The position numbers and the translations under genes were made by a program. A stretch of 64,000 nt of DNA, from contig NC_091142.1 of the NCBI RefSeq assembly GCF_041381155.1, positions 35,823,604 to 35,887,603 of the forward strand, written 5' to 3'. A model generated the notes under the pieces. That model was not told where the DNA came from. It ran no database searches and saw only the letters and a program-made list of their open reading frames with translations. Below are positions 6,501-51,794 of this stretch, one piece after another (the stretch's first letter is position 1; each line of letters starts with the position of its first letter). The stretch comes from Argopecten irradians (taxonomy: Eukaryota; Mollusca; Bivalvia; Pectinida; Pectinidae).

Positions 6501-9500
6501 AAATCTTGCTTTTCTAAATCTAAAATAAAATTAGATGTTTTACAGTACTTTTTCGTCAAATTGAATATAATTTTGGAATAAAGTAAGAAGTTTCAGATTC
6601 CCCTATATTTCGCCAAATTTCCCCCCTATTTTGAAAAAGGGTAGTTTCCCCCAAAACCCAGATTGATCCTTGCGCATGGTAGTTGACTATCACTGCGCCA
6701 GACGGCAAAACAGCAAAATAACTCTCCATTATTATCAAACATTACACAGGAAATCTTGCATATGTTTGGTGTTGTAACCTCATCTTATGCCATTGGTATA
6801 TATTTTCTGATGTTATTGATGTTTTTAAGAAACCTTTAGGGTTTCCCCCGGAAAGGTAGTTGGCATTTAATACAGAACTCTACTCTCTCTTTTATCTCAA
6901 TACTAACTTAATCATTTTTGTATCAATTTGTTTTTTCACAGAAGAAAAAGATCTTGCATCCCTGGATCGTTATTTAGCTAAAAACACCAGTGAAGATAAT
7001 GCATCCTTCGCTGAGATCCTCGAGGAGACAAAGAAAAAGGAGAGAGAGAAACACGCCTGGCTTTATGAAAATGAAAAAGATAGAACAACGGTAGGTCTAT
7101 TAATGTATATAAAAAACTCAAAATTAGAACATTAAATTCATAACTTTGTAAAAAGCGCAAAGTATTTATCCTGTATTTACTTATTTGTCTGGCAAAACGT
7201 GTATTCCTGGATCTTAATTTAAAAAATGCAGAAAAAAGTAAACAAAAGATGGGGAAAAGTATAGACAAAGTGATATATTTACATATGCCCCTATATAGTC
7301 AATTGGAAGGGAGTTGCATTCAGATTGGCGTAGTAGGTAATCACAATGACTTATGAATACAAATGCAGTGCAGGTTCGAACTACTTTTAGTTCACGCTAC
7401 AATAAGATTTCGTGTCATAAGTTGACGGATTTCAAAGCAATAATAAAGAGTTTTTATTAGATCTGATTAAATATGTCTTTGACATCAAAACAAAAGATGT
7501 GTTCAAGCATTGTAATAGTAATAAACAACAAAATGAATCGCTGGTCGGGGCTACAACCGGGAGGCTTTCCTCAGGAATGTTCAAGGAATTCCATACAGTA
7601 GTAACATCAGTATGTGTGTACGGTCACTCATCTCATCTAAATATACAGAACATCTGATTGTCGGTGAACAATTCTGGGAGCGTCTTAATGAACAATAGGT
7701 TAACAGATCATATACAGGTTTCAGAAAAAAAACATTACAGGTAGCCTATCCGAAACAGTTTGGTTTGGTTTGTTTAGTTTTACGTCCTATTAACAGCCAG
7801 GGTCATGTAAGGACGTGCCAGGTTTGTTGGTGGAGGAAAGCCGGAGTACCCGGAGAAAAACCACCGGCCAGCGGTCAGTACCTGGCAACTGCCCCACATA
7901 GGATTCGAACCCGCATCCCAGAGGTGGAGGACTTGTGGTAATATGTCGGGACATCTTAACCACTCGGCCACCGCAGCCCCCTCTCTCCGAAACAGAATCA
8001 TCTGATTTACCCCCATTTTTGCATTCAAAATAGGCCTACACACAGGCAAACACTTGTCTATACTCCGTACAATAAAATAAAAGTCATGACTATGAAGAAT
8101 TTAGTCTATATCACGTTCGTAGACTGACACATACATGACAAACATTCAGCAGCTCAACGTAGTTACTCAACTTAGCAACCATCACCATTTTAAATTTGAC
8201 ATAAAAGTAGACATATTTATGTAAATATATAGATTGAACAGTGTTTTGATTGTGTTAAAGGTGGTATGAACGCAATGAGATACAGACATATTCTACATGT
8301 AGCGCTAACTAGATTGAATATATCTGTATCCCATTGTGCTCATACCACCTTTAATGCAATCAAAACACTGTTCAATTCTATTTAACCAATGAAAAATTGT
8401 GATACAAACAAAATTGATTTATAATACGTATAATCTTTGGTTATTAGGAGGAGAGTGAGCGCTTAGCACTGCCCACTATAGAACAACAGGCTATAGAAGG
8501 ACCACCCCAGGCCGGAGCTGACTCGTGGAAGTACAAGGCCAGAAATTCCCTGATGTATGTACCAGATGGTAAGTAGTAACATAAACAGTTACATAATGGG
8601 TATAGTGTGGATTGTGTAGGAGGTCTTTATCTGATTCACATACAATATGGTAATTACGTCAGGTGTTAGTCTGTAAACCTAATAATTGGTTTCTCTCCTG
8701 TTACAGTTGCCCTTCTCCTTTATTTATCATCTGAGTCAGATGTTCCTTTATCAAAAAGACACATAGAAATAAGTCGAATTGTTTATGTACACAAATCTTT
8801 CTTCCTTTCTGAAGATTTCATTGGAAAATTAAATGAGGTTTATGGGTGTAATATATTCTTTTATCATTTGAGAATTATATACCAGGGGCAAGGATCATGA
8901 AACAGTCTAAGACTTAATTTTTTGCCTGGCCAATCAAAAATGACATAACTTTTTATAACATCATCTGTAATGGGCTAAGTCTCAACTTAAGACTATTTTA
9001 GACTTGAGACTGTTTCATGATCTTGGAGCCAGGTAATATTCTGTTAAAATAACTAAAACAATAGCTGTTATGACATTAACTCAAACAATGAAATCCAGTC
9101 AGATATATTTTAAGTGGATTTACCGGTACTATGGCTCCAGAGAAAATCTATATAGCTTACATGTACATATACATGCCAGGTGTAAACATTGGTATTGTTT
9201 TGTTGTCAGGTGAGGAATTAAGTGAAGCTGAGCTGTTGGAACTGAGAAAAGGAAAATCAAGGGAGATAATTCACGAAAACACCAGATTCCAAGTCAGTCC
9301 ATGGAACCAATCAAGAAGTGCTGAGCAAATAAAACAAGTGGCGTCATTAAAAGCCCTTTCATGTTATGGCAAAATAGGCCATGATGGAAAGGAAGTTATG
9401 CCGTTAGAATCTCCTAAAGTGAATGGCTATGGTTTTGTTGGTACACCGTCTCCGGCCCCGGGAGTTGAGGACTCTCCCATGATGACCTGGGGAGAGATAG

Positions 9501-11774
9501 ACAGCACTCCGTATCGCCTGGAGGGAAGTGAAACACCACTCACAGGTGCTGGAGGTCCCACATTTAAGGTCAGTTTGTAAATCCCTTAAAATAAATTTAA
9601 GAACTGAAGTAGTGAATGGATTTTGTTATGAGTTCATAATTTATTGTATATCTAAGATAAATAGAATCATATATGTTGTCTGTCAAGTGGACAGGGATAT
9701 TTTAACCCGTGTGAAAGATTTTGGCATATCAACCCAAGGCTTGCCGAGGGTTGACAGCCAAAATCTTTCTCGAAGGTTGAGATATCCCTGTCCACTTGAC
9801 AGACCCATGTTTGATTCTTTTTCTCCCATACTTTCACAATCAAGCATTGAAGTCAAATTTTTTAATTTCATTTTGAAAGAAATATGACTTCAATACTTAT
9901 AATAATTTTCGCCAGGCTACTTTATAAAATGAATGTCGCACGTACGATTCCATTGATTTTTTCCTTAATGATGTCGCTGACAGTAGGCACCATATATATT
10001 AATGCCGTCACGTCATTATCTATCATGTGTTTCCCTAACACAGTAAAAGACAGAGTTATCTTTTCCCTAGCAACCGTGGGATAACCTTTTCAAGTATGAG
10101 AGAAAAAAGTTTCATATCGATAAGAGCGAGAAAACAAAGTATGTCTTAAGTTTTTTGTTTTTGTCTCTGAACAATTAAGTGCGTGGCTGATTGGGACTAC
10201 TTTGTGTACTACATGAATCTTCCTTCTGAAATCACATTAGCATGGGATATCATCATTTAGTGTCATTCCATCACCAATAGAGACAAAAGTCCTGTGCAAA
10301 CGTTATCATGTATCAATGTGGTACATGAATTAATCTTATTGGTCATTGATCATGTGATTTTTAAGGTGATAGAGTATAAGGAAATGATAATAGTTCTAAC
10401 TGTGTCAGCTTTTAGAGCAGAGTGTATCATTGTAAGAACTAGCATTCTAGTAGTTTAATGATCTAAAATGAACAATTTTGTTTTGGTAAATGTTTTAGAA
10501 TTTGCCTTCATTGATATTTGATAGTTCATCCTTCATTCCTCTAAAGACTCAAAGGCTACTTGCAAGGCAATTATAATAAGATAATTAAAAGAAAAGTTTT
10601 CTGGTTTGTAAAATTTCTAAAATTATCTTTTATACATTCTTAACAGATTCCAGAGATGCCAAAGAGGGACAGACTTGCAATGGATCTAGCTGAGAAAGCA
10701 AGCAAAGCACATAGAGACAAGAAAGAGAAAGCATTAAAATCTGTACAAGCTCGACTGTCATCAACGTAAGTATTACCATCAAATTGTATAGGATACATAT
10801 TTAGGATCTAAAATGATCCATTTTGTAAATGTATTTTGCATAATGTTTGATAGACAATTGTTTTCTCTGTCATCTGTGAGTGATAATTGATGAAATTCAA
10901 ATTCAATAACAGGCTAATAAAACTAATATTTTGCAAAATGCAGTACAAATACAAAAAAAAAAAAGACATTTTAAGTTGAAGATGCTCCACCGCCGACGAA
11001 TGTTATTTTTTCTCTATCAAAAGCACGACTAAATGATTTAGTATTTTTCTCCAGTTACAAAAGTTACTTACTTTGCACCATTTAAATTCAAAGATAAAAA
11101 TATTAGAAATAATTAATTGCATCCTGAAAAAATTCTATAAACACAATTATACATCAGTTACTCTTCAAATGATGGGTATCATTTATGCTTTTTCGGCGGT
11201 GGAGCATCTTTAAGGTAATAAAATTAATGTTTTATAAAAACCTTGAATTTTGGAGGAAAAAAAATTGGAAGACATGGAGTTAAAGTGTGTTTTGTGCCTC
11301 TGAAAGACACATACCATAATGATATTATTTAAATGATAAAACTTCTTAAAAAACAATCATATATTCAGTATTAACAGACGCATCGATGAGCAATAAGAAT
11401 GATTATATTTTGTTTGCAAAGTTTTGAAAATGAATTTCTTTGTTTTTAGGTCACCGTCTCCAAAATTTGGAAGATCTACGACGGAAAGACTGCAGTCCAT
11501 GTCACCAGCAGCACAGCGACTGGCGACAGCTAGGCTTGGTGTGAGAACACAATCTGACAAAGCATTACGTGCTAGCTACACTCCTTCTCCCTCTCATAGA
11601 CTTACAGGGGGCAAGTCTCCCTCACTTACCCCGAAACTCACCCCCAAACATTCTAGTGATACACCGTCAGGGGGCACAACTCCAGGAAGTAAACGAGACG
11701 GACCTGATATTTCATCTCTAACTGACAATCTCTTACAGTTACCAAAAAGGAAAAAGGCGTCAGATTTTTTTTGA
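509..11774 (+). CDS. ESS2: Splicing factor ESS-2 homolog (DGCR14), 5'-partial
   Basis: Nuclear spliceosome-associated protein; the family is linked to the catalytic C complex and splice-site fidelity. Seven exons join in frame: 509-671, 5752-5853, 6942-7090, 8448-8568, 9210-9568, 10647-10765 and 11450-11774, giving 445 residues plus TGA. All introns are GT-AG and phases match at every junction. Family signatures, in order: [19 protein letters not shown], the SEDNASF segment followed by [24 protein letters not shown] with [22 protein letters not shown], and the C-terminal NLLQLP...KASDFF. The human protein is about 476 residues, so roughly the first 25-35 residues are missing; no matching exon was seen in 1-508, so the first exon should lie left of the window. 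The coding sequence has no frameshift or stop. Introns carry many transposons (see separate entries). Identification is secure; the 5' end is incomplete. Confidence 0.95.
1249..1640 (+). repeat. Left terminal inverted repeat of the 3-kb transposon
   Basis: It starts with a short AACGACAAC-type tandem motif, continues through two diverged submodules each ending in a GATCGGC(G)ACTGGTCA-like motif, and is matched in reverse complement at 3830-4243 with scattered substitutions. Confidence 0.8.
2395..3095 (-). pseudogene. Decayed MULE-like transposase fragment
   Basis: Two open stretches in different minus-strand frames read as consecutive parts of one protein. The first (3095-2802) contains [12 protein letters not shown], resembling the segment after the catalytic domain of animal MULE-type transposases. 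The second (2772-2395) continues with [26 protein letters not shown] and a basic C-terminus with RKRVRG. At least one frameshift separates them and the upstream catalytic portion is not recognisable. It is therefore a dead internal remnant of the surrounding transposon. The MULE assignment rests on this motif, the long terminal repeats and the 8-bp target duplication; no database search was possible. Confidence 0.5.
3830..4243 (-). repeat. Right terminal inverted repeat of the 3-kb transposon
   Basis: Reverse complement of 1249-1640. It is slightly longer because the terminal GTTGTCGTTT motif is repeated about five times here against about three on the left. The number of these short terminal repeats differs between the ends, as expected for a slipping minisatellite. 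Confidence 0.8.
4540..5460 (-). mobile_element. 5'-truncated LINE (jockey/CR1-like), 3' end
   Basis: On the minus strand, 5407-5204 encodes [11 protein letters not shown]...[10 protein letters not shown], matching in order the C-terminal part of the LINE at 39.8-42.8 kb (CRTINTSDN...IILCQLRN). It then continues with a cysteine motif and HYFF, again as in that LINE. The 3' UTR carries the shared phrase around GGCAAAGCCTATATAGG and ends in A-rich sequence near 4540. Only the last ~0.9 kb is present, as expected for 5'-truncated retrotransposition. Sequence divergence suggests an older copy or a sister family. Confidence 0.7.
5481..5556 (-). mobile_element. tRNA-derived SINE head or tRNA pseudogene
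   Basis: Minus strand has an A-box-like TAGCTTAGTTG (matches TRGYNNARNNG) and a degenerate B-box, GGTTCCAGTCT, about 45 bases later. The acceptor stem does not pair, so it is not a functional tRNA. It abuts the truncated LINE. Confidence 0.5.
6031..6866. mobile_element. MITE family A copy with a nested insertion (TTAA target)
   Basis: The ends are inverted repeats: AGGCCCACTACCTTTCCG at 6031 and its imperfect complement at ~6849-6866 (16 of 18 match). TTAA tetramers flank both sides (6027-6030, 6867-6870). The same sequence occurs at 22296-22655 in reverse and at 62012-62358. About 430 bp in the middle (6239-6675) is absent from those copies and is a second element. Confidence 0.75.
6239..6675. 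mobile_element. Nested element inside MITE family A copy
   Basis: This block interrupts the MITE homology. Its ends are short inverted repeats (CAGGGATCAATCTAG and the complement of CCCAGATTGATCCTTG). Inside are several scattered TTCCCCTC/ATTCCCC-type motifs. The host sequence resumes with TAGTTGACTATCACTG, as in the other family A copies. Confidence 0.65.
7759..7985 (-). mobile_element. tRNA-Leu-headed SINE, complete, with 10-bp target duplication
   Basis: Read on the minus strand, it begins with a leucine-tRNA-like head with intact A box (TGGCCGAGTGG) and B box (GGTTCGAATCC). A conserved core follows (CCGGTGGTTTTTCTCCGGGT, then CACGTCCTTACATGACCCTG) and a short TTTGG-rich tail. It is flanked by the perfect direct repeat TCCGAAACAG at 7749-7758 and 7986-7995. 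To my knowledge SINEs with this core are common in bivalves, especially scallops. The intact promoter boxes and clean target duplication suggest a young insertion. Confidence 0.85.
8233..8376. mobile_element. Palindromic MITE/foldback
   Basis: The arms of about 56 bp (starting ATTGAACAGTGTTTTGATTG) are reverse complements with about five mismatches, separated by a ~30-bp spacer. No reading frame. It lies in an ESS2 intron. Confidence 0.8.
8882..9034. mobile_element. Short inverted-repeat MITE
   Basis: The ends CAAGGATCATGAAACAGTCT and the complement of AGACTGTTTCATGATCTTGG face each other across a ~100-bp centre. No coding capacity. It lies in an ESS2 intron. Confidence 0.7.
9679..9803. repeat. 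Hairpin-forming inverted repeat
   Basis: The arm TCTGTCAAGTGGACAGGGAT pairs with the reverse complement at the right end. The inner arms CAAAATCTTTC and GAAAGATTTTG also pair, so most of the 125 bp can fold. A related phrase (dATATCCCTGTC with GGGAAA) recurs near 16600-16710. Confidence 0.7.
10980..11209. mobile_element. MITE family B copy 1 (TTAA target)
   Basis: The terminal inverted repeats are AGATGCTCCACCGCCGA and its complement. The flank is TTAA on the right and TTGA (one change) on the left. A second copy in reverse orientation is at 60677-61032. No reading frame. It lies in the last ESS2 intron. Confidence 0.8.
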
Positions 11775-16490: not shown

Positions 16491-18627
16491 CACGTACAAA
16501 TATTCCACATCTACAATGTGCGCCGCAGTTACACCGCATGTATTGATGACGTCACGTTATTGTCCTGCGCGTGTGAGCTGTCTTACACTCCCCTGTGTAA
16601 GATAGAGATATCTTTTCCCTAGCGAACCTCGGGATGTCCTTGTGAAGTATGGGGGAAAGAAAAATATCACACTGGTAAAACTGTGGATATCCCTGTCTGG
16701 GGTAAGATAATTCGTTATCATAACCTCTAGGTAGGGAAATATTCATTTTTTCTGAACCACATGACCAATTGATTGCGATATGTCGGTTTGTTTGTTTGTT
16801 TGAGTTTTACGACCCATCGACAACTAAGGTATTTAGGGCCAAACTACAGGGCAGTACCAGGGTATAAACTGTATCTAAAATATCAGGATAAGAAAAAGGC
16901 AAGCAAAAACTAAAACAAAATTGTAAATGTTGATTTAATAAAAAGAGTTACATAGGATAAAATAGTTTTGGCTAAAACACATGAGAAAACTCATGCACAA
17001 TGTTGACGAAACGATGAGTGTTGCGTTGATATGAATATAAGATGAGATTTGTCGGACTATTGAGATTTTCGTATTTCTAAATTTTACAATTAAATATTTC
17101 ACAGAAGAAATCAATTTTAACATGAACAATGTTAAAGCTTATGGAAATACAACTGGCATTAACAGCAGGTGCAAACATCGGCAAAAACAATAGGAAAACC
17201 AGAGCGACCCCTAGGTCTACACGGTCGCCTGTGTTATAAAATGTCGTTTTTCTTCTTATCTTCATAATAGCTGTATAAATGTGTATTTACAAACTTTGTA
17301 GCCCTCTCTATTAGTCCAAGATTACAGGAATCATCGTTATTAAGAATAAGTTCAAAAGGTAACTTTGACGCCGAAGGAGAGGGGATCGCAATAGGTTAAA
17401 TGCGACTGCGTATTATGTGACTTTATAAAAGCAATTAAGAGCAACATAACATATCACTCACTACAGACTTTATTGAAATCCCTTCAGTAGTTTAAGTGGA
17501 GTAGCCATTTTATTATTTTGTAACAAAGGTGCATAACTCTGAAAAAAGGTAAAAAGATATTTTCTTGTTGCAGTTTGTATCTGAGATATGACGAGGGATA
17601 ACGAACGATGAATTATGATTGTAAGTATGGTTTGTATATTGTGAGAAAATTTTAATAAAGAAAATGTGTGTTGTTTTCAAGTTCAGTTCGGACCGTGGGT
17701 AATTATATAAATCACAGGACACAAAACGAAGAATTCAAGTAGAATTTGATTTTCTCTTGTATTGTATTTCTTTCCCACATATCAACATATGTGGCACATT
17801 ACATAGAAATAAAATGAAAGTTCACTCGTATTGGTAATCCAATATGTAGACACCGAATTAGTTATCCGTAGATGGCGATCCACCTTATAAAAGTTCCGAA
17901 TTTGAATAATGTTCACACACAGTTCACTATCGACCGCCTTGAAGGTTGGAAATCCAACTGATGTTCATAAATCAGGCATGGGTTTTTATAATAAAATGAC
18001 CATTGTCCGATAGGTAAACCCGGATGTAATCAAGATCAATAGCATAAAGACATTATCACAATTAAACGACTTGAAAATATATCGGCAGTTTGATATGAAA
18101 TATATCTACTTAAGCTTATCAATGACACCATTGCCTCAAGGAAGGTTATAAACACTTTGACATGTGAATACTATATGTAATTGTCGGTCACTCCACAAAA
18201 ATAAGACCACAATGCCTTAGGGTAGATTTTAAACTTGTCAACACATCTATAGGTAAAATATACAATTATATAACAACAGAGAACATCTCAGATTTCTCTA
18301 TGACAAAATCTTGAAAATTTGAAGCTTGTTATCGTTATTCTCCACAAAATTCCGATGGATATTTCTTACGTTTCTTCTTTATAATCATTTCTAGTTCGCA
18401 AATTTTCACATGTGCACCAATCTTGTATTTGGCATTTTAGCATAATGTGTGGAACTTTATCCATGTAATCAAATGTTCGAACGAAAACAAGTTTAAAAGT
18501 ATGAGAAAAGAAAATGTCAATTTCGCATTTGTCTGGTAAAGAGCATTCATTGGTGGGTGATTTCTCTATGATCTCTTTTATCTACCTTAGTGATTTTATC
18601 TGCATCATTAGTCTTCTTGGTGAGAAA

Positions 18628-21600
18628 ATGGATGACACTAATAATAAAGTAAAGTCTGTCACTGAAGATACCTACTCAACAATTATTTATCGACGGACCG
18701 GCACCAGATCTGACTTCATAACACCGGTACTACAGGAACAACCTTCAAAAGCAAACCAAATGCTGAAAAAACCGTCCCAAGAATGGAAACTCAGAGTATT
18801 CCTGATGAAGCTTGCAAAGAATATCACTGTAGATGAGTTGAATGAAATAAAGTTATTATTGAAAGGTAAATACAAGCTTTTGCTATAAACTGTCTACATT
18901 CAGCTGCTGAGATATTAATTATATATTACAGGTGACATAAAAAGATAGAGATACTGATTTATTACAGGTGAGATAGAAAGATAGAGATACTGATTAATTA
19001 CAGGTGAAATAGGAAGATAGATATTTTGATTAATTACAGGTGAGATCAGGATATAGTTGGTGATTTGTTATATGTGACACGGAGATTAGGATGTTGATTT
19101 TCTACAGTTGAGATGGAATTTGTCATTTGTTATCAGGTTTATGTTTAATTGATGAGTTATCACATATTATATTTCTTATGAAAGAGAGAGATATCTATTT
19201 CATGATCAGTAAAACTGACATGGTGATTTGATATATGATGCTTTTTCAAAGGATATAATGTTCTAATTTATAATATATTACACCTTTAATATATATTCCA
19301 GCCGAATACCATACCAGTAAAACGGTACTGTCAGAAATAAAAACGGTGATACAGGTCTTCGATCATTTAATGGATATCGCCTTTATGGATGTATATAATC
19401 TCCAACAACTACAAAGTCTGGTATGGCACCTGGACAGAAAGGACTTGCACACCACACTGACTGGTTTTGCCAGAGAGTACAACACATGTCCTTTACAAAT
19501 ATTTAAACCAGACAGAAGTCCAAGTAAGTGATGCTTTCTTTAAAAAACTCATTTGTAATGAATAATCTATTTTGCGAACTAATTGTCTCAACCACTTATT
19601 ATCATTATTCATATAATCCGCTTAATTTCAAGTGACTTTGCCCAGATAAATTAATATTTTTGCATATGTCACTAGTGTAATTTCACCTGGAGCGATATTC
19701 ACATCAGCTGGAATTTTGCAACACATTTTATCCTTTGAAATGTAGGTTTTTGAAGTTATGTGATAAAAAGTATCTTAGGTATGTGTTCATTTTTTGTATG
19801 AGATTTGATGAAATACGTCCGTAGTTGTAAGCTTTGGTTACCAAGACTCGCAAAAATGAAGAAAAACCTTTGTTTCATAAAATCTCATATTCACGAACTG
19901 AACACTTATATAAGAACCTATGTATATGTACTAATCATGATCACTGATGTCTATACAAAATTTATATGAAATAAAAAGTAGAAAAACTATGTAGGTGAAT
20001 GATGTCCAATTGTAAATACAAAATTTAAAAACCTTAATCAGACGGCAATGTTGCCCTACCTCCCTCGAGTATTGACTTCGAATATTTTTTGACGAAGCGC
20101 CCTCGTTTATACTTATCGTGAATTAGTTATAAACTCGGACAATTAAGAAGATCACAAAACACTAGATGCATAATGTAAAAATATCACTCATGTGAAGTCC
20201 TGGTTTGTCGTGCGGGTTATGAATAAAAAAAAAATACAAAAACAAAAAACAACTAAAAAAACCATAATAAATAAAACAAAAAGAAAAATTAATAAATAAA
20301 CAAAAACTCGGGGTAAAATCAGTTTAATCCTGTCCTTTAAATGAGTTTTGAATTTATTTTAAAGGGAACGGTTACGTGTATGCTGACTTCCATGTTGGCG
20401 GACAACTGGAAACAACATCTAAGCTCGACATTGAAACCATGCGTACAACTATTGCTGATCGATTGTTTGTTCCTTCCAAATTTATCTATATCAAGGGTAT
20501 AGAATATCTACACAGTTTAACGGTTACACTGATGATTCCCGAATCTTCTGTGTTTAGTCTGTTTGAGCTGTCAGATGTTGAGAAGTCAGCCCTAAAAAAC
20601 CTGAAGATTGACTCATTTGAAATTGAGGATAAACATGTGAAGCTAGCAGGCAAGTGTTTATTAGCACACCATTGTTGTAAAGTGTGTGTCTAATGTTATA
20701 CCACCAACCGACGTGTCTACACCGCCCCATTCTGTCCTACATGTAGTACCATTTTATCCTCATTTAGCCTCTGCCATAATTGTCCTGATGGAGCCCAGAT
20801 AAATATTCTAAGCCAATTATATGAGGATTCTTCCTTCGTTATTTGAGCATATTTCCGAATGTATAAATTCACGATCAAGGGTTCTAACTGACAATCGTGC
20901 ATTCATCTAGCATTGAACTGGATTCAATTAGCAATTATGGGAGTATTTTAGCGCTTTATGTTGATTTACCGCAGTTCAGATGGAATTTATACCCCCATAA
21001 TTTCCAGTTGAATTGGGTTCTATGCTTATTTACATTCGATAACAATTTTATGTTGAAATCCTAAGAGATTTCGCATTTATAATACATAAAAAATATTATT
21101 GTCAAAAACGGAACAGACATCTTCCGTGATCGCGCAAGAAAAATGTGACATCACAATGATAATGACGTTATACTTAACGAATGGCAGTTCATAGACTGTT
21201 ACATGCCAAATGCTCTTTGTAAGGTGGGCTGTAGTGAAACAATATATATACACAATTTTTAATACAATTATTTGCGTAACATTTTAAGTCGCGTTCGAGG
21301 TCTCTTGCGATATAACGAGGAATTTGCATAACAGTATTGGGCTACTTGTCCAATCACAGTTTAGCAAGAGTACTCCTGGAATTTTCGGAACTAAGTTTCC
21401 TTTTAAAACAGTCTAGGACAAGTGCAATAAAATTTCTAATGATTATTGTACCTATTTGCACATACATGTCATTTTTATAAATTAGCTTTTACGATATTTA
21501 CAATATTGTTTTAGCGGTATTTTGTTTTATTGTTTTACAATAACAACGCAAAATACTGATTCCTTGTCTGAAAGCTTCTTTAATTAAATTTAATTCTACT

Positions 21601-24600
21601 TATTGCTATTTATCCGAGATTTTTGTTCAGTTTAATTTTATTTTTTTAAATAAAGTGACCTTTATGAATTATTGTTATAGAAGAACCATTAAGCAGCAAA
21701 CCACATGAAGAAATATTGGCAGTGGGCAAAGTCAGTAAGTATATGTAGTCTTGATATACCAAAATGTGTAAAAACCAATTAACTTTGTATGATTAAAAGT
21801 ACCTCAATAAGGGGGTATCGAGATCCCAAAACGACGTGAGTAAAATACAACTTACCATGATTAGTTCCACCTTCCGGTGATTATGACGTCACGAAACTCA
21901 CGTCAAATGATGAAGTCATAATCATCGGATGGTGGGACTAATCGACGGTAAATTGTACTTTACTCACGTGTTTTTTAGATCTCGAAACCCCGTAAATATT
22001 CACCTTTTTGTTTATTATACATAATCGTCTTTGACTGTAGAGTTTGAGTTATTGTCAATTTGTACTATTGACTTATTGAATTAGTTGTATCGTTCGCGCG
22101 GAGAACAGTCTTCTAAATTGCAAAGCAAAGTCAAACACTATGTTGAAATACTAAATTAGTATCCGTGTATTTAAAAGCATGCATGTGCTATGTTGTAAGG
22201 TTATATGATACATATAATATGTTTTGTACCCGTTATGTATATTCAATATTCTATTTTTCTTCCTAAATTAGTCCCTTTTATTGCCGTTTTGTGAAAGGCC
22301 CAATACCTTAACGAAATGGAAATAAAGTTTCTTAAAATAGTAATAACCTAAGAAAAGTTCCTATATCGATAGCCTAAGATGAGGTTACAACACCAAACAA
22401 ATGCAAGATTTCATTATAATCTATGTTATCAATGAAGATCCATTTCGCTGTTTTGTTTCTAGCACAGTGATAGTCAACGAACGCGTGGTAATAAGGATGG
22501 CAGCGGGATACTAGCATTATGAAAATTACCATTTATTTTAATTGAATTATTAAGAAGGTGATGTTAATGTAGTATCAGCGATAAGCTAAAACCTTTTGCG
22601 ACTCTATTTTTCGGTATCAATGTCGTTTTACATTTCCATTTGTTAAGATTTTTACTATCATAATTAATTTACAATTAACGAAGTTATACAGAATGCATAT
22701 AAACTAACTTTTCTATTTGTAAGTAATTGATATCCAAAAGCATCGACACTCAGATTATGTAGTACTAGTAGATAAAAAAGTCTTTCCACAAAATGTCTAC
22801 TCTTGGGTAGCTGTCTCGGCAACCAACTGGTGCCCTTCTGGAGCCCTTACGATAATTGAATAATTGGAATGTAACGAAAGGTAACGTAACTTATTCAAAA
22901 TTACGAGAAAATGATTAATATTGATCAAATTGAAAATAGCATAGTTATTTCTCCAAAAGTTATACATGTATATCTAATTTCTTTGGATATTATCTGTTGG
23001 CTAGTATCACACATACGGTATCGCCATAATAATGACTGCAATAGCTGTTTGTGCATAGGGGAAATATCAATTGCATGATACATACATTGTTGGTATTTAG
23101 TACATTTATATCCTACATTATCCATACTAGATTGTTAATTTGATACAACATTCGTTTTGTCTAATTTATGTTTTATTTAAGAAAAACGCAGGAGACAGTA
23201 TGAGGAGTCCGGTTACCAAAACAGTGAGTACAGTATGCTTTGTTTTATTCTAATGTCGTTAATTAATGTTTGCCAAGACTGCTTCCGTCAGCAAATAGTC
23301 ATAGCCGTAAACCATTTCCTTACCTGATGACGTACTACAACATAATGTTCGTTAAAGTGTTATAATATAACTATACAGGGTCGTTTTCCGGAATACTCCA
23401 TGCAAATTTAATATTGAAGTGATCATTTAAGACTTCATCTAGAACCAAAAAATGCATTTCCCTATATATTGAATTTAGCAGTCAATTTTCTCAAGAACAT
23501 AGATGAACTCCTGGGTTTCTGTCTGCATGACAGACTAGGAATCAATTTAGGATGACAATTTTTGTGAAGTTTATCTTTGTGCAAGTAGACCCGAAGATTT
23601 TTCTGTAACAGAAAGTCTTAACGGCTAGACTTTGAAAAATGTTTGTGATTGGAAACTAATTATAAAATGGTGCAAAAATATTTGCGCGATTAGTAAATGA
23701 AAAGTTAAACGGAAAATAAAGTTTTACAGACTAAATAATCATTACTGTGAGAACCGTTCAGTCTGTTGAAGGGTGTTATTTAACATATTTACCAGAAATG
23801 TATATATTCTTTTACCAATTCATAACATTTAGAGACAGTTTAGTAACAAGTATTTCTTTCATCCTTACTAATCTTAGTTATTTTGGCTGCTTTATTTTAT
23901 TTTTATTTTGTGTGTGGGGATCGTTTTTAAAAGTTTAAAGACATTTCACATATTTCAATTTATTGTTATGTTCTAGGTCATGTAACTACGGATCTTCCAG
24001 ACGTCAGATTTCAAGATGTACGTTTCACCAATGCACCCGATAACGTTTGTGCGGGACTAATATCTTTGTTAAATACTTTTGTGCGCATTTCTTACCAGGA
24101 AAGTATGATTTTATTGATATTTAATCTCAAAAAGACAATTATTTAATTTGATTTTAAGATTTGACTTGATAAATCTGTCTGACAATGTACAACATTATTC
24201 TATATTTGCATATTACTGAGTTATCTGCCCTTGCAAGTAGGTATTGATTGTGACGGTCCTAACCATAACCCTAACAGAGTCTTGACGGCCATGTCTGTGC
24301 TAGCGTTACTTCACACTTTTCAGAGAAACCGACATAAATTTCGCTTACACAATCATGACGTCACAATTGATAATTACCCGCAAGGGAGGTAACTCAATAA
24401 AGTGCAAATAAAGAATTGGTGACATATCTAACGAACAGTTTGTTTGCTTTTAGCCATCTGAAGAAATTTCCGTCCAACGTGCTATACAACATGGAGACGT
24501 CCGTTTGTTACGTGCATTAGCAGCATCAAACACAGACCTGACTGATGGAGGTCGGTTCTATCCTCTACACACTGCTGCATCACTGGGGATGAAGAGACTA

Positions 24601-27600
24601 ACTTCATATTTGTTACAATCTGGATTCGATATAGATGAACTAAATCAATATGGTCGTACTCCTTTGGAAAGTGTAGACCAGAGCAAGGACAAGGTTCTGT
24701 TGCAATATATGAGAAAAGTAGGAGGGATAACGTCTGCTACTGAACATGGCACACATGACGGAAACGAAGGTATTTTTTTCTTTAAAAATAAGTAATGACC
24801 ATAATGTTTCTTATGAAGCCAACACACATTAATGAAATCTTTGTTTAAAGCCTGATGAGAAGAATTTAATTTTGTATAACTATAGGTGTTACCTAAACGT
24901 AACACAATTAGTATTCTTTTGTTTTCATGTACATTCATTCCACCAAATCCTATTGAAGTAGAGTTTTTCTTCCTTTCCACACTGTATTGTACTCGCGTGG
25001 ATTGTTAAAATAGATAATTCGTTTGTTTTATCCGTAAAAACGAACTAGGATATTGCTTTTCTAGTACGCCTTGGGATTTTTTTTTGCAATAAGATAAATT
25101 ATTAAGCAATATTTTCCCTTTCTTTCCGTATTGATGTACCCTGACTGACCTGTTTTCACACTTTGATAATTATATCCTATTTTTCCCTTTTCATAGTGTA
25201 ATTTCACATATTAACTATATTGCGCAATATAATTAAGGTATGTTTGATGCCACTCATCTATAATTGACTTGCCACTACTCGAACTGGAATCCGGCAGCCC
25301 GGGAACTAATCCAAGTGTTTAACTTTGTTAATTTTTGATTTTTAAGATCAACATAGATTTACGGACCAGGTCGATAGGTCGCCTATGTATTTAAAACTGT
25401 TTTAAGCTGCATCTTGTGGATTGCCAGCACAATGAAATTCCAAAAAGACAAACTGTTCTATGACACCCGTTGAGTTAGAACACTGGAATTGTCATGGGTT
25501 ACTGAAGATATATCATTCTAATAGCAGTTTAGCGTATTACCTTCAAACGGGGATCTGAGTGTTAAGGAATAAAATTAAATTTTTGCTTATACAGCACTCT
25601 GGTATACCAGAGTGCTGTATAAGCAAACATTTAATTTTATTCCTTAACACTCAGATCCCCGTTTGAAGGTAATACGCTAAAAACGACATTTACTAAAACG
25701 TCTGTTGTAATCTAGATAATTTTGGTTGATGCTTTTTAGATTGCATTTTGCTATCATTTTTGTAACAAGTTTTAAACACAGTATTTTCTGCCATCCACCT
25801 GAAATCGAATCGGCAAGTAGTCCTTTCATCATTGTATATATTGATAGAATTGATCGTGACTTGATTACAATGTTAAAGCTCACTTTTTCAAATGAACCTA
25901 TAATAAATAATAAATGTATTGTTTTCCTTTTTTCTGTCAAAGTGTTTATAATCCCCTTCAATATCGTGATAATGTATTGTTCTTATTGTGTTTGTATGAC
26001 CGTTCCAGCTGGGATAGGATCATCGACACCACAGCCTTACGTCTGTGTTAACATGGAGAGAGTTGATTTATCATTTAGAACTGTATACCTCCCATCTAGC
26101 CAGGTAAAATATAGAACATTCTATAGTATATATTACAGAAAGCTATAAATTCAAATAACAGATGACCAACCCAATCGCAACTGTCGTGTGTACCAATACA
26201 AAATACAATCAAGGTTTATTTGTGTTACAACACTTTTGTGACGAAGTTTTAATTATATGTTCGTTATGTACGATATGGCGATATGTATGTTTTCAATAGA
26301 TATTTTTGTTTATTTTTGAGATGATATATGCTTCAATGTTTATATATTGATTATAGCTAGCTATGACTCTCGTGACTTTTTTTAAACTGTGTGCTTTTGG
26401 TGATTAATGATAAAGGTCTGATGGCGATATCAGTCGATATGAAACCCTATGAACTCTGCTAGGGATGCTAAATAGTCATTTAGGGATTAAAGCTTCTATC
26501 GCTCTCAGCCTAAGGATTATCCTCAGCATTTTTAACGGTCAGAGCGATATAGGTTTGATCAGGGATTCCCGTAGTGTTCCACAGGTATCTAGTAAAGTAT
26601 CTTATGAAGATCTCGAAAATTATTATACATGCAAATTAAAATTGCAACAGCTGTTTTTTTATAATGTGAAGTATGATAAGTAATTTGTTCGTGGTTTTGT
26701 TCTAGTTCCGAGCGACCTTTAAAACTACCTTGATGGGAAGGGATTCGATGTCCAAGTTTTTGTTCGTGTCGCCGTGTGTCTCTGAATATAAAACTCTGTG
26801 TACTTATCAGATGTACGGCTTACTCAATATCCTTGGACAATGTGAATCGGGGGGAGACGTCAAGAGATGTTTAGAGTGTGTAGTCCTTCCCAACAGACAA
26901 ATGATGACGTGTAAAGATCGTACATCCGGTGTTTTTAATTTCGACACCTTTTCCGACTGCAGAGTTCATGGACTGAATGGCAATATCGGTAGTATCTTTC
27001 ATTTTATGTGTAATTCCAATTCTTGTACATTTGTAGTTCCAAATAATTATATTTTAGGATTGAAATGTAGGTTTTTGCCATATTGCACAAATTGATATTT
27101 TTCAGATATTATAGAAGGTCTATATAGCTCGTTTGTTTACATTTAATCTAATAGGGGTGGTACTATACATTTACTGAAATCTAAACTCTTATTTTGTTGA
27201 ATCAAATGATTTGTAAAATTCCATGGATCAGACAATATCTGACTTTTGTGTCATCCATTCATACATCCTAGAGAACATATCTCTAAAACATCTTCCTGAA
27301 TCAAGACCAGACTGTAATGCAACATGAAAATGCAAAAGCAAAGCATATACAAACGATTACAAACATCTGTTTTTCTTGTGGAAAGGAAACAAACAAAGTA
27401 ATTTATGACTACTTTGACGTGCCGAAAAATATTTAGAATTATTGTAATAGACAGTCGTGTTAATGTGTGCGGATATTTCATTTAGAAGCAACTAGGATAC
27501 TACCAATTCCGTGTTTGGGCATCAAAGATGCAAAATTAACTTGGTTTTAAAAACACTATTTTAAACCTAAAATTTCAGGTACCAAATACTTTAGAGTCCT

Positions 27601-30600
27601 TTACTGTCATTTGTTAGACGGTATCGTTTCATGCAAGCGTTTAACCATTACTGTATAAAACGATTTTTCTGTACCTTTTACACTTGGTAATATGTAGCTC
27701 AACCTTAAAATTTCAAATGTTTCCTCTCTTGATAGTTGGATAGTAGTGGTATCTTATCACGCGATCTGTCATTAAAATCTTCTTGTAAATTCTAGATGGG
27801 ATGCCCTCATGGATATGCTCGATTCTAAACAGGACCACATATTCTCCGTGTTCGTTACTTTGTGACGGTTGGACACCCATGCATTACGCCATTCTGACTC
27901 GTAATGATGACCTCCTCAACCATTTGTGTGACACTGGAGAAGGAAATCTGAAGGAAAAAACTCATACGTTACTTCCAAAGTTCATCCTGGATCAGCTGAA
28001 GGACAACTGTCTGTTTGAGTACGAGTATGTGTATAGTCATATTGAGGGGTTCACACCTCTTACGCTTGCTACGTATACAGGGAATCAGTCTGCGATTACG
28101 TCAATATTGCAAAATATTGAAACAGTAACTGCTCTTTCTAGTCATGACATAGCTGACGCATTGTTACTGGCGTATTGCGATGAAGTGGAACCCACAATTC
28201 TTCGCGCACTTTGTAATGCCGGTAAAAAACAAATATCACATAACCATCAAGTTGAGGTCAACCTGAAACCTTATTACCGGAAGGAAAACCCGTTGCGGCG
28301 AATCTTGTCTGGTTCATCAAGAAAAGTGCTTGAGGAAATTGAAGAGGAGATTTGTTCTGTGCCAATTTTGGTAGAGAACAAAAATATCATCGTCGGCGAA
28401 TATGAAAACACAAGTACATTAGATGCTGTGTCTGAGGAAGAAGACAATCTCTTAGCAGAAACAATAGAGTTTCATTCTGATCGGTTGTGGAAGAGGCATA
28501 GCATCCTTAACGCTATCACACCTGGTCATATTTCGTCACTGCAGACAAAATGTCAGGGATATAACAAGACGACCATGATTGTCCTACATAGCACGTACAA
28601 GCATTTAAATCCTTCATCTGAAATTCCATTTCCAGGATATTTGACCACAAACGGATCACGGATTTTAGTCCATGTTGTGGAAGGTTCATTCAGATTTGGA
28701 AATACTGTTAAAGTTGGCCAAAGCATTGATTCTGAGGAATATCGTGCCACTACGGGAGTATTTGTACAAAACACTCAGAACAAAATTGGCTTTCTAACAT
28801 GTGCACATACATTCTTAAGGGAATTTTTTGATAGCAAAGAGATTTTCCACGACGAATTGTTTGATCCAGATAAGTCACCCCAACTATTGAAAGTATTTAC
28901 TGAAGCAGAAACAAATTTCCATGTGTTTAAAACAGACAACAGTAAAGAAAACGATGGTCTACATTCAGTACCAACGTCACTATCTGTTGACGTCGAGGAA
29001 ATGGAAGCTATTGAGTAAGTAATTTTGTACTTGGTACATATTAGTGCAAATAACCAAAACATTCGTGAAATTGAGTGAAAATATCTTTAATAAACATGAC
29101 AGGACAACAAAATATATTATAAATCTTGGTGCTTATTCCTTGAAGGGAGACATGATTGACCTTTTAAACATTTTCCAGTTGTACTAGTATTTAAATTTTG
29201 AAATGAGGGTTTGACATTCCACTTTTAGTGAAAATATCTTTACGATATACATTTTAGCTTTTTTTTAAACATTAATATGTCTTGCTGTATTTTTTTTTTA
29301 AATGAACGTTTGTAATATTTTCTGTTTTGGTTTTGCTTTCTTCAGGAGTATGCAAGTCTGTGGGTACGTGAGGAGGCTAGTGTTGCGGCCAAAGAAGGAC
29401 ATTGGCATAGACGTTGCTCTCATCTTATTCAACGACGATGCCACAGTCACACTGAGTCCACAGTTACATCTTGAGCATTCAATGTCCAGACAACAACTAC
29501 GCGGTCATCGTACGTATAATGCGTTTATCTCTTATCACCATAATCAATGATACGCACATTTTCTCACACTAAGCAGTGATTTATATTCCAATATAGTAAT
29601 TAATTAAATGAAAAAAAAAAAAAATCACTATCAAATTACAAAATTGCTGTTCGACAGAAAGTAACAACTGCTGAAATAATTCTATGCAGCAATTATGCTC
29701 AAGCCACCTCAAATGTATCGCTGTTGAACGTTCCAAAGAAAAGTTTGTACTATTTTATTTCGTCATTCAAATATTATAATAAACAAGTTTTTTCCAACGC
29801 TGTACACATTTCATATACGGATATGAAATGTTGCAACGCGGCGTCTTGTGACAATGATTTATTCATAAGGAATAGTGTAGGAAATGTGTACGATAAGCAT
29901 TTCAATGAACCCCTGATAATTGGGAAGCAGCCTGGACAACTTCCAATTTGGACGCAAGTGTCATGAAAGGGAAAATATTCACTATGTAGACGCTCTTCGG
30001 ATGGCTAGAAAACCCGCTATCAGATGTTTGGGCGGGAAACTGAAGTTTTATTGAGGATCCATAATGTTTAATTACCTGTAAAAAAGTAGAATCATAGTGT
30101 TTAAGATCTTTGAAAATATAGCTTAGTTGCTTCCATAGCTACACTACACTCATTTTGAACTATAATCATGAAACGGAAAGATTTGTGTTTTGTTGTGAAA
30201 CTTGACATCGATTAGTACTCCTTTTATTTCACCCTTCTATTCGAATATAACAAAATTCAATATTTTTTTACATTAATAATTTAATTACTTATAACTGTGT
30301 TCAATAATTCGTTTGATATAAAAAATATCTACATCTACTGATACCGACCAGCTCGGTTCCAAGAGGGACATACTCAATTTATCAGAAATAATGAAAAAAA
30401 ATTATATAGAATAGAACTGAGAAGATGTTCCTACTCTCAATTTATCCATAACTATAACTCATTTGTTATTTCTTTTCAGTCGTCAAAAATAAGAAACACC
30501 TTACATTTACAAATGGTGAAATATTCAAAGGAAAAAGATCGGTTACGGTCTGCAAATGTGGAATAGGCACTGGTTTCAGTGTTGGAAAAATCAGTTTCGA

Positions 30601-30944
30601 CAAATCGACCTGTCAATTTAAGATAAGCGATGACAGTACGGAAAATGAACCGCTGGCTTTTAGCGATGGTAAAAACAAAGCACATTATGAGAGGACAGAT
30701 TTGTGGTTTGGAACCTGTTCTTCCTACGGAACGTTTCTTTTTAGAAGGGGATTCGGGCTCAGCCGTGTTTCTGTTCGAAAATAACGCTTCGTCAGATTGT
30801 ATTGGAATGGGTATAGGTCATCTCACCAAGAGTAATGTATGTCTAGTTACTCCAATACGGCAGATTCTCGACGCGTTGACTGAAGACCAACATATCACTT
30901 ACAGATTATTGACGCTTCCAAGTAATTTACAGACTGGCAAATAA
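18628..30944 (+). CDS. DED - alpha/beta - ankyrin - trypsin-like protease protein (frame change before catalytic Ser)
   Basis: Twelve exons: 18628-18865, 19302-19523, 20365-20649, 21681-21734, 23182-23223, 23977-24017, 24454-24769, 26009-26103, 26706-26988, 27796-29014, 29346-29509, 30480-30944. Phases match at each junction; one donor is GC (AG/GCAAGT). About 1,140 residues, no signal peptide or membrane segment, so probably cytosolic. Residues ~53-135: death-effector-like helical domain with HLDRKDL, matching the RxDL signature. ~155-245: alpha/beta domain, possibly TRADD-N-like. ~295-385 and ~530-640: ankyrin-type repeats (RFYPLHTAASLG, GWTPMHYAILTRN). ~790-1110: chymotrypsin-fold protease with TCAHTF (His ~863), IDVALI (Asp ~954), GDSGS (Ser ~1078). 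In the last exon the frame carrying ICGLEP and GDSGS is one base off the incoming frame; the change lies about 30600-30740. It may be a real lesion or an assembly indel. ATG 18628 was chosen because it follows a plausible acceptor; 18514 is an in-frame alternative. Role in death-fold signalling or immunity is inferred. Confidence 0.8.
18927..19045 (+). repeat. Intronic tandem repeat, ~41-bp unit
   Basis: Three to four imperfect copies of ATTACAGGTGAGATAGAAAG...GATACTGATT in intron 1 of the DED-protease gene. Each unit contains CAGGTGAGAT, which resembles a splice donor or acceptor. Confidence 0.75.
19700..19925. mobile_element. MITE family E copy 1
   Basis: Has internal inverted segments (ACTTCAAAAACCTACA-like, ATAAAATCTCATAT-like) shared with 57612-57800 in opposite orientation. 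Phrases in common include GTTATGTGATAAAAAGTATC. No reading frame. Confidence 0.6.
21815..21995. mobile_element. Palindromic MITE
   Basis: The left arm (GGGGTATCGAGATC, ACGTGAGTAAA, GATTAGTTCCACCTTCCGGTG) is mirrored on the right with a few mismatches, around a centre with GACGTCACGAAACTCACGTC. No coding capacity. Intronic. Confidence 0.75.
22296..22655. mobile_element. MITE family A copy 2 (reverse orientation)
   Basis: Matches the reverse complement of 6031-6866 without the nested insertion. Shared phrases include AAGATGAGGTTACAACACCA and CAGTGATAGTCAAC. Terminal TTAA is not preserved here. Intronic. Confidence 0.65.
24203..24410. mobile_element. MITE family D copy 1
   Basis: The ends TATTTGCATATTACTGAGTT and the near complement of AACTCAATAAAGTGCAAATA, with inner CCCTTGCAAGTA / CCCGCAAGGGAGG, form inverted repeats. 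The same element is at 33726-33888. The 5' half here contains TCTTGACGG repeats. Intronic. Confidence 0.7.
25530..25680. repeat. Near-perfect 151-bp palindrome
   Basis: The arms of about 75 bp, from TAGCGTATTACCTTCAAACG to the centre CTGGTATACCAG, are complementary with a single visible mismatch and essentially no spacer. No reading frame. It lies in an intron of the DED-protease gene. The lack of arm divergence suggests a very recent insertion or active arm homogenisation. Confidence 0.9.
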
Positions 30945-37900: not shown

Positions 37901-40900
37901 TCCTGAACAAAATCAAACCTGCATGTTTTTATCTCATGGCCATCTACATTAAGGTCATGTCAAATGTCAGTGATCCGACAACATCGCTATAAAGGTATTG
38001 AAATGACCCCAATATTGTTAGGGACACCTTATGACAGCTCTTGCGAAAAATTGTGAAATAACACAACAATCGTAATTAACACAATAATTTTGATAATGTT
38101 TAATGAAATGTTTGCTGTAAAGCTCACCGTCTCCCGTAATGACTTACCACATAGATGTCATGTCCTCCTAATACCCAAACAGTTTCAACTAGGTCTGTTA
38201 AAGATGTCTCGATGTACTGAAGAGCTTCGTCAAACGAGGAAACGATTTTGTGAATAAATTCGTCGTTTATGATATTACCACTGCAGTGTAAAAATGAAAT
38301 TGAATAAATAAATAAAAATGCCAACATTATTATGCAATCAAGGATGAGCTTGGTTTATGATGACATAACACTCATATCTGTGCTATATCTCAATAACAAT
38401 AAAGACATTCTCAAGTTAATCCGTATAACTTAATTTACTAGATTATCTCTTCCAAATAATAATAATAAAAAAACACTGACGGACTTTTTCTTTTTTTCAT
38501 CGCACCATGGTATTCACCAATCAGAAATGACGTTACATATAGCTTTGTCGTTTGTTTCCATTATGGACTGTAATTTTAAGCCAATGATAATACTTCTTGC
38601 AAATAAAATTGATTATATGAATTTCGACTTGAGTAGACTATATCATTGTGCGTTGATTACTGAAATGAAAAGGCCAAGAAAGAAGGAAATTAGAATGACC
38701 TTGGATTTCGGCTAATCACAATATTGAAGACGTTCCTTGTTTTCCCTTCTGCACTAGCACACTGCCATGTGACCCGACCGCGGATGTTCACACATTTTCT
38801 GTCTGTAATATATTTGATACAAAATACATACAAAACATCAACTACTTATCAAAATATCAAAGCACACGTGTAAAAATATACATAACAAAATTTGCTTTCT
38901 TTGGTAAACGAAATAACAGAGTAAATGCTATACAATTATCGACCTATTTTCAGGTGGATACGGTGAGTAATCATCCCGGGGTTGATATCGTAGTTGACGA
39001 ATTCTTTTGAGAAACGTATCGGCCAATCAAAATACAGCTAAAGCAACAGTCATATTTTAACACTTAATATTAATTATCTCTAACGTCTTTAAAAATATAA
39101 AGGTTTTCTTATGGTGATATGATGCTCTATCTTGAAAAATCCTGATTTGATTTTCTTGAAAATTGACTGAATAAAAGCAACCATGTTAATTTTCATTTAA
39201 TTATTTTTTTCTATAACAAGTGACCGTTACGATTTTTATCTATTTTCATTTTATGAGAATGTTTAAGGTTAATTACACACATCTTTTTTTTAACCTCGTT
39301 TTCATCAAAACATTACAAGTATCTATGACGAGAAGAAAAGCAGTTTTACCTTGAAAAAACATGGATATATACCACATCAAATGAACAATATATATATCAT
39401 AGAGCATTTAGTTCAACAATTTTATTTACAGGGCGGATTTACTTCGGACGAATACTGATTTTTCATGTATAGATTCTACTCAAATTGGAATATCAATTAG
39501 AAAAAAATGACAGGTTCAATTTCTTCGAAACTCTGCCAGAGGACGCATAACAACGTATTTACTTCATAGAACAAGTACGTAATGAATGATGAACTACGGG
39601 AACGTTTTGGAAAATGTGAGACTACGGCGTTTATTTTGGTATACAACTAATAAAGATAGTACGAGCAACTCTGCTGTAATGTTGATCCCTTACCTGGTGA
39701 CGATGTGTGTGCTGTCAGATCCATAAAGTATCTATATTCATTTCTGAAATAAAAGACACCTTCTTTAACTCCAAACATGCTTAATCATAATGCCAAAGTA
39801 TTTGAATTGCATCATACCTAATTTTCAAAACATTATTACTGTGCTCCCAAATGATAAGCCCTGGATGAATAATACCATCAGATTAAAAATGAGACAACGC
39901 AATAGAATATATAGAAAAGCTAAAATAATTAATACCCCCCCACTACTGGGAACGATTTCGTTATCTTAGGAATGAAACAATCGACTTGATCCGTGTGGCT
40001 AAAAAAAACTACATCAAAAAGCTTGAAAATTGTCTAAATGAAAACTCAGTCCCTCCAGACAAATGGTGGAAGATAGCAAAATCTATTACTAACTTCACTA
40101 ATAAATCCTCTTCTATTCCACCTCTTGAATCTGATAATCAAACCATCAATCATCCTATTGATAAAGCAGAAATCCTGAATAATCATTTTAGTAATACTTC
40201 TACATCTTCACCAAACCTTGAATTACCTCAGTTAGCACAGCCCTATATACCTTACTCACTTACTAATATTCAAATCACTCAACAAGATGTATCTGACCAA
40301 ATTAGTAATCTTAATGTAAATAAACCCCCTGGACCAGACGGTATAGTTCCTAAAATAGTAAAACATTTGTGTAACTCACTTATTCTCCCTCTCAGTCTTC
40401 TATTTAATAAAACTCTGGATTCAGGAATAATTCCAATTAGTTGGAAACAATCAAATGTAAATGCTATATATAAAGGGAATGGGTCATCTAATGATGTTCA
40501 AAATTATAGACCTATCTCGATAACCTCTTGTTTCAGTAAAATAATGGAAAAAATAGTATTTAAATATCTCTACAACTATCTTATGGACAACTCTATATTA
40601 TCTAAGCATCAGTCTGGCTTCATACCAGGTGATTCCACTGTTAATCAACTATTGTTTATTTATAATGAAATTGTTAGCAATATGGACCAGGGTAAGGAAC
40701 TTCGATTTATTTTTTTGTGATATAAGTAAAGCTTTTGACAGAGTATGGCATAAAGGTCTTTTACATAAACTCCAGATGTATGGAATAAATGGAAATTTAC
40801 TTCTATGGTTCGACAATTACCTATCTGATAGATTACAAAGAGTGACCACAGAAGGCTACTATTCACAGTTCAAGGTTGTAAATGCTGGGGTACCCCAGGG

Positions 40901-46371: not shown

Positions 46372-46853
46372 TCACAAGAACAGTCAACTTCAGAACTTTC
46401 ATCTTCAGTGACCTCCCAACTGACCTTGACTTTGGTTAGAATTCGATCTCCAAAATCTTTGTAGGTTATGCTCATATATGCGTTTGCTATGGATGGTGGT
46501 GTGTAGTCCATCAGCAGAGAGCTTGAGTAAAAGTGACTCCACGTGCCGGCTTGGTTTACTGCAGTAACTGTAACGTGTTCATTTTGTCCATGAGGTGCCT
46601 CAACCGGTAGCAGTACACTATAGGACGTGGAGACACGTTTAAGCGGATGTAATTGGAACCAACCTTTCGATGTTCCTGCCCCAACATAGATCTCTCTCAT
46701 TCCACTCTCCAGGTCCATGATACCAGTATTGATGTTGAGTTCTGTGAGCGTCACCTGGTGGACTACGACAACATCATCCATAAGACCTGTTTCTGTGATT
46801 CTGTTGGATACTGACAAGATGATATCTACTGACATCGCTTTCATATATAACAA
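46372..46853 (-). other. Repeat exon near the 3' part of the large repeat gene
   Basis: Open across ~155 residues: TGLMDDVVVVHQVTLTELNI, DLESGMREIYVGAGTSKGWF, HVTVTAVNQAGTW, MDYTPPSIANAYMSI, VSWEVTEDES, ending in CSCEI at a GTAAGT donor. Upstream pieces are 48478-48583 (NGAGLSSVTASDEFVVDRSA) and 47245-47362 (SGIKYYSAGLGTDPLLDDVK). Downstream, 45038-46190 is broken into several frames. Confidence 0.6.
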
Positions 46854-49525: not shown

Positions 49526-49600
49526 GGAATGCAAAATATCACTTACAACGTGTGCGTAAGGATTACTTCCTAGGAGTACAAACGTCATCATATGAAGAAA

Positions 49601-51470: not shown

Positions 51471-51794
51471 GGGCCAGCTTCTGGCATGTCGATAACTAAA
51501 ACAAAGAAATATTTATTCTAAGGTTTATCTAAATGTGACAGTCTTAACTTTTAAAATCAAATTGGTTACTAGATAAATATAAATATGCCAGAAACGCGAG
51601 GCAATTTCATGAGATGTAAAAATATCTTCTTTTGATTTTTTGTTCGAGACATATGTAGATGATGTTTAGCTGACATGATTTCATTCTTACTTGACATTTT
51701 TGCAGGCGTCTAAAATAATTGCTCGGGTTAATTAATATGCGATATTGATACGTATGATAACATAAGTATAAAATAGACCTTTAACATACCTCTA

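Follow-up and report, generated by a model that had tools for sequence, protein, structure and literature searches.

The locus and its gene model

A 64,000-nucleotide stretch of the Argopecten irradians genome (NC_091142.1, contig C9 of an assembly of 845.8 Mb in 1508 contigs, positions 35823604-35887603; hereafter the window) contains a plus-strand gene that appears to join two modules otherwise found in separate scallop genes: a death-effector domain (DED) with a TRADD-N-like domain, and ankyrin repeats with a peptidase domain whose nearest solved relative is the plant protease NARROW LEAF 1 (NAL1). As a gene model the fusion holds, and its predicted domains are those proposed in an earlier reading of the letters alone (the sequence-only reading), apart from the additional TRADD-N-like domain; the closest protease is NAL1. 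Catalytic competence of this particular copy, in contrast, does not stand as read.

The gene model rests on the NCBI-derived A. irradians protein P0001 ("isoform X2", 1078 aa; its cluster holds five member sequences), which we rebuilt letter for letter from 13 exons of the window. The sequence-only reading had described a 12-exon gene; the multi-exon, plus-strand organization is retained, but the exon count and the start are not, since isoform X2 as annotated comprises 13 coding exons, starting at 17608, upstream of 18628. A by-eye reading of candidate exons had already given a nearly continuous frame, of which P0001 corrects the start (17608) and the end of exon 7 (24017). The first coding exon (17608-17620) encodes MNYD; an alternative in-frame start (MDDTNNK..., 18628-18667) lies upstream of the isoform X2 acceptor and is absent from P0001. 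GT-AG ends are found in 11 of the 12 introns; the exception, the intron that follows 20649, is GC-AG. Between 18668 and 23223, the length of each of the five exons is a multiple of three, and both of its borders are in phase 1. As previously proposed, no signal sequence is apparent at the P0001 N-terminus, a judgment by eye for which no predictor was run.

The DED and TRADD-N-like half

The N-terminal half of the protein is encoded by four exons after the start. Exon 2 (18668-18865) carries a linker and the first DED helices, exon 3 (19302-19523) the remainder of the DED with its RKDL motif, and exon 4 (20365-20649), which ends in the GC donor, the TRADD-N-like domain. Exon 5 (21681-21734) is assigned to this half through a weak by-eye likeness to the stretch that follows TRADD-N in the Mizuhopecten protein P0006. 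Scored on its N-terminal 153 aa, the product reaches 38.0 bits against the Pfam DED model (PF01335; cut-off 35.9), and a second N-terminal piece reaches 37.4. We aligned five members, namely the window gene, P0006 and three loci from the same genome, two of the five lacking the first 30 columns. Every member, the window gene included, matches Pfam DED (best 5.6e-14), and a PDB search with the five-member profile recovers caspase-8, PEA-15 and FADD, with the caspase-8 DED best (E 1.1e-8) and cFLIP matched weakly (0.06). The RxDL motif is a hallmark of DEDs; RKD is invariant in all five members and reads RKDL in the window gene. The DED-like domain recognized originally by its HLDRKDL signature is thus borne out by Pfam and by the profile. 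Up to E 10, Pfam finds no caspase catalytic domain in the window gene.

What follows the DED can be named less firmly. NCOA6_TRADD-N is matched by all five members (best 0.0023; window gene 0.11), and TRADD-like_N (PF20694) by three of the five (best 9.7e-10), the window gene not among them. Because the window gene falls under the Pfam cut-off while its relatives reach 9.7e-10, we label its predicted domain only TRADD-N-like; of the check for TRADD-N that had been suggested, the relatives give a match and the window gene one under the cut-off.

Ankyrin repeats and a NAL1-like peptidase

The second half opens with a charged linker in exon 6 (23182-23223) and continues through a further linker in exon 7 (23977-24017, shorter than the initial by-eye model of 23977-24102) into the first ankyrin block, exon 8 (24454-24769). 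A spacer (exon 9, 26009-26103) and a conserved spacer of unknown fold (exon 10, 26706-26988) separate this block from exon 11 (27796-29014), which holds the second ankyrin block, an LWxxHS.LN segment and the start of the peptidase; exon 12 (29346-29509) encodes the middle of the peptidase. The predicted catalytic His codon lies at 28806-28808 (CAHT) and the predicted Asp codon at 29410-29412 (GIDVALI), both in columns invariant in the relatives' alignments. The ankyrin-type repeats are confirmed by Ank_2 (46.2 bits against a cut-off of 27.3, E 6.9e-12; two blocks), and a profile built on the second block with its flanks retrieves PDB chains made of ankyrin repeats (55 sequences, E <= 0.01).

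What kind of peptidase is this? Single-sequence searches find no peptidase family in Pfam and none in NCBIfam, where matches are at chance level, and a three-member peptidase profile has no match in the PDB; wider profiles were needed. We sampled 14 of the 15 loci elsewhere in the genome that match only the C-terminal half, read their open frames, and aligned nine diverged relatives with the window gene left out (six of the nine rows are exons joined by eye). The C.H, D and GDSG positions are invariant in all nine, eight of which are 23-57 % identical to the first. The best PDB match of the nine-member profile is NAL1 (E 6.2e-5 over the whole chain), a match made up of a His segment and then a GDSGS segment in order, which alone would score 0.14 and 7.5, respectively. 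Up to E 10 this profile has 17 PDB matches, of which nine are entries for NAL1; the remaining eight (0.14-1.6) are by name serine proteases, which we take to belong to the same clan as NAL1. A second, overlapping seven-member profile finds NAL1 at 4.5e-5, and all 15 of its matches are likewise NAL1 or serine proteases by name. Among the nine relatives themselves, Pfam gives Trypsin_2 in three (best 0.0023), Peptidase_S64 in three (best 0.1), and single matches to Nal1_C (0.023), Trypsin (0.054) and an unrelated collagen model (0.21); by curated score, Trypsin_2 reaches 16.9 and 16.2 bits in two relatives, under the cut-off of 27.6. PADLOC, for its part, reports a weak LmuA match in one of the nine (E 0.0021).

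Maize NAL1a is described in the available portions of PMC12915138 as nuclear and cytoplasmic and as degrading a TOPLESS-like corepressor. On the wide-profile matches together with this localisation, our best reading of the domain is a NAL1-like intracellular serine protease of the PA clan (chymotrypsin fold). Because the closest relative of known structure is a plant protease located inside the cell, a cytosolic or nuclear protease in the effector position is plausible. The sequence-only reading had called the domain a chymotrypsin-fold protease with recognisable His, Asp and GDSGS motifs and proposed a cytosolic serine protease as effector, adding that its proposal would fall if profile searches found neither death-fold nor peptidase similarity. 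Both similarities were found, that to peptidases through the family profile only, and the NAL1 likeness makes the proposed effector plausible; the GDSGS motif and its serine, however, are out of frame in the window product.

Could the domain instead be a PA-fold binding module that is not a protease in any member of the family? The two Trypsin_2 scores under the cut-off and the GDSGA that replaces GDSGS in the paralog P0003 would suit such a module, but it would have no need of catalytic positions that stay invariant in nine of nine relatives at the divergence given above, and the nucleophile would be the GDSG serine, still present in P0003. We consider a binding-only family very improbable.

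Separate halves elsewhere and the joining intron

Outside the window the two halves occur apart. The genome counts are lower bounds, since 43 of 66 candidates were scored, with loci grouped by hand; they comprise at least 20 loci, of which five match only the N-terminal half (residues up to 239) and 15 only the C-terminal half (from residue 282). The at least 15 loci that pair ankyrin repeats with a NAL1-like protease include L009-L021, spread by genome matches over contigs C4, C1, C3, C13, C55, C547, C15 and C9, and a locus on C163; five lie on C13. Among annotated proteins, both halves are found apart in Mizuhopecten and the protease half in Pecten, and no DED is matched in Pecten P0002 or in Mizuhopecten P0004, P0005 and P0007. 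An ortholog search across bivalves had been proposed; the relatives found here, all in scallops, have one half or the other, and the fusion is seen in one gene of one species.

The separate genes carry other partners. Scallop ankyrin-proteases elsewhere bear a WWE domain or charged N-termini, and the DED-TRADD-N relatives are without a protease. WWE scores 24.1 bits in Mizuhopecten P0007 (cut-off 21.1) and 19.7, just under, in Pecten P0002, and is not listed for P0003, P0004 or P0005; by analogy, P0002 and P0007 could possibly be ADP-ribose-reading proteases. A search of the window and the relatives' loci for a WWE trace beside the window gene gave one weak match (6995-7087, E 0.037), which we take as chance.

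The exons themselves indicate where the halves meet. Those upstream match a DED-TRADD-N locus at 26.3 Mb of C9 at 41, 50 and 67 % identity; two look-alike DED-TRADD-N genes lie there some 50 kb apart (L024 at 26.31 Mb and L025 at 26.36 Mb). L025 runs on into an apparent coiled coil, as Mizuhopecten P0006 does; L024 does likewise but with frame changes and stop codons past the TRADD-N exon, where L025 reads through. Downstream, exons of the paralog P0003 (C163) match exons 6, 7 and 8 in the same phases (1-1, 1-0 and 0, by eye), and the P0003 exon upstream of the exon-6 match has no visible likeness to exon 5. Because exons 6-8 match P0003 and the upstream exons match DED-TRADD-N loci, we place the apparent join in the phase-1 intron at 21735-23181. 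This intron also contains nested, MITE-like inverted repeats (21812-21991; arms of 45 and 33 bases).

Might an annotation pipeline simply have predicted two neighboring genes, one DED-TRADD-N and one ankyrin-protease, as one? The halves do occur apart elsewhere, the three joining exons are just 54, 42 and 41 bases long and little conserved, and the fusion is in no relative found. On the other hand, frame and phase are kept at every junction, the P0001 cluster holds several sequences, and the model includes a first exon upstream of 18628 and a GC-AG intron; automatic pipelines usually accept such exons and introns only with transcript support. We think an artefact of this kind improbable, if less so than a binding-only family. 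The explanation that we place at even probability is a lineage-specific fusion in which a DED-TRADD-N gene contributed its 5′ exons and was joined, within the phase-1 intron, to an ankyrin/NAL1-like protease gene; domain content, exon phases and the halves found apart, both as exon matches in the genome and as annotated proteins, all point to it.

A frame break ahead of the predicted catalytic serine

Exon 13 as annotated (30480-30784) departs from the frame conserved in relatives at about 30671-30677 and stops early, at 30782-30784. The remainder of the peptidase (30678-30944) is conserved but out of frame, with 88 stop-free codons before a TAA, and the GDSGS motif (30747-30761) belongs to this frame, which is not the one translated in P0001. 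Among intact relatives, P0002, P0004 and P0007 have GDSGS and P0003 has GDSGA; P0005 ends before the GDSG part. Could splicing repair the break? A 76-base intron at 30669-30744 would restore the GDSGS frame, but we rejected it: it would cut out a block conserved in relatives, and of the 11 loci outside the window with an open frame bearing a GDSG-type motif, seven (L010, L013, L015, L016, L019, L021 and L023) have the exon as a single open frame of 144-162 aa, which also speaks against it. The other four (L011, L012, L014 and L017) have shorter open frames (65-131 aa).

The unread frame nevertheless still looks selected. Compared with the paralog P0003, at synonymous distances of 1.2-1.7 and thus near saturation, the GDSGS-frame remainder has a dN/dS of 0.23 (75 codons), where the in-frame part of exon 13 gives 0.30 (63 codons) and the large exon 11 gives 0.17 (368 codons). 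Since the GDSGS frame keeps this ratio, the break is probably either very young or an error of assembly. Searched with exon 13, the genome yielded a single copy at 100 % identity and one further match (68 %), and no second identical copy.

If the break is real, a natural alternative presents itself: the product would pair a DED with a dead protease and act as a decoy or brake in the manner of cFLIP, which consists of DEDs plus an inactive caspase, or else the gene would be retained for its DED and ankyrin parts while its end is a young pseudogene. The NCBI protein retains the broken frame and early stop, the exon 13 search shows no second copy to contradict the break, and damage is apparent in at least one further member of the family (L014 on C55, whose His exon appears by reading to shift frame). 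Set against this are the out-of-frame codons, which stay open at a low dN/dS, and the position of the break within an A-rich run, a context in which assemblies often contain indels. We regard a real break with a dead protease as unlikely, though a more serious contender than an annotation artefact; a working gene, misassembled here or present as a very young allele, is somewhat likelier than a long-dead gene.

Several results weigh against a functional DED-protease fusion and should be set beside its support. No other fused copy is present among the at least 20 loci outside the window. The DED scores 34.3 bits, under the 35.9 cut-off, when the 1140-aa model query is scored whole, and for the domain behind it PF13820 reaches 15.8 and 12.7 bits on pieces (cut-off 22.5) and is unlisted for the full-length query. 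The structure models are too poor for use, with a mean pLDDT of 32 for P0003 and 37 for P0001, a level that also applies to the six helices predicted at 42-129 of P0001, where a DED would form a six-helix bundle. Finally, the annotated protein lacks the catalytic serine, so that the triad is incomplete in the window product. With these points included, our best reading remains a lineage-specific, exon-shuffled gene in which death-fold control would extend to a NAL1-like protease or to what is left of one that has died.

Other features of the window

Four further features of the window stand apart from the coding exons of this gene. The intron after exon 8 contains a near-perfect palindrome (25528-25681; two 77-base arms, 99 % complementary, no spacer), which may be a foldback element. 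Upstream of the fusion gene lies an exon of an Es2 nuclear protein gene (9092-9577, 53.7 bits), and downstream, at 39929-42177, two overlapping frames match a reverse transcriptase (RVT_1, 6.9e-23 and 2.7e-07), of non-LTR type by reading. On the minus strand, many long open frames at 46308-58443 resemble one large repetitive extracellular protein gene; the four pieces of them that were scanned have no Pfam match at E 0.01. Rfam finds no match in the window.

Comparison with known systems

Bivalve DED-TRADD-N proteins have been described as a lineage-specific expansion with variable C-terminal effectors (Kaur, Iyer, Burroughs and Aravind 2021, PMC8195603). Like them, the window gene has an N-terminal DED, a TRADD-N-like domain and a variable region able to hold ankyrin repeats and effectors, and it is best read as a probable variant of this already known theme. 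It differs in its effector: the animal lists in the available parts of PMC8195603 name caspase, STAND, HEPN, PARP/macro, cGAS and others but no trypsin-like protease, and the mentions of trypsin in its main text, in eight places, all concern prokaryotic systems. There, bacterial bDLD1, bDLD3 and EAD are fused to trypsin-like peptidases in predicted conflict systems. The window gene resembles these in pairing a death-fold adaptor with a trypsin-like peptidase; unlike it, they are given no ankyrin or TRADD-N in those parts of the source, and the likeness is one of architecture that implies no homology of the adaptors. The sequence-only reading had mentioned such fusions from both bacterial and invertebrate systems; the bacterial half of that statement is documented there, and an animal trypsin fusion is not seen in the same parts. 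Among the open-licence literature matches listed, by titles and abstract openings, we found neither an animal death-fold/trypsin fusion nor a scallop set of ankyrin plus NAL1-like proteases.

The remaining comparisons are with single families. NAL1 is the best PDB profile match, a remote one that rests mostly on the His and Ser segments, and unlike the window gene it has no DED or ankyrin named in PDB titles or in the available portions of PMC12915138. Caspase-8, FADD and cFLIP share the DED as a recruiting module, but the protease predicted here, unlike that of caspase-8, is of serine type. FAM111A and FAM111B are trypsin-like proteases, FAM111A being reported as tied to DNA replication and antiviral defence; this likeness is by description only, and FAM111 is absent from the PDB matches of both peptidase profiles.

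A proposed mechanism and its meaning

How might such a protein work? We suggest that the DED, perhaps together with the TRADD-N-like domain, would dock onto a death-fold assembly or self-assemble; that the resulting crowding (induced proximity) would activate the NAL1-like serine protease inside the cell, much as caspase-8 is activated through its DEDs; and that the ankyrin repeats would select a substrate or a pathogen ligand. Our broader proposal, held tentatively, is that a death-fold adaptor here directly drives a NAL1-like protease as a caspase-free effector of death or immunity, and that scallops possess a family of such proteases with swappable N-terminal sensors (WWE in two, DED-TRADD-N here).

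The best-known animal effectors of DEDs are caspases. If the proposal is true, the DED-protease fusion would be an animal counterpart of the bacterial fusions of death-like domains to trypsin-like peptidases and a new route for wiring a death signal to protein cutting, and one gene family would suffice to test whether effectors can be exchanged behind a common adaptor. Even if the window copy is dead, the scallop set of ankyrin proteins with a protease like plant NAL1 can be tested in its own right.

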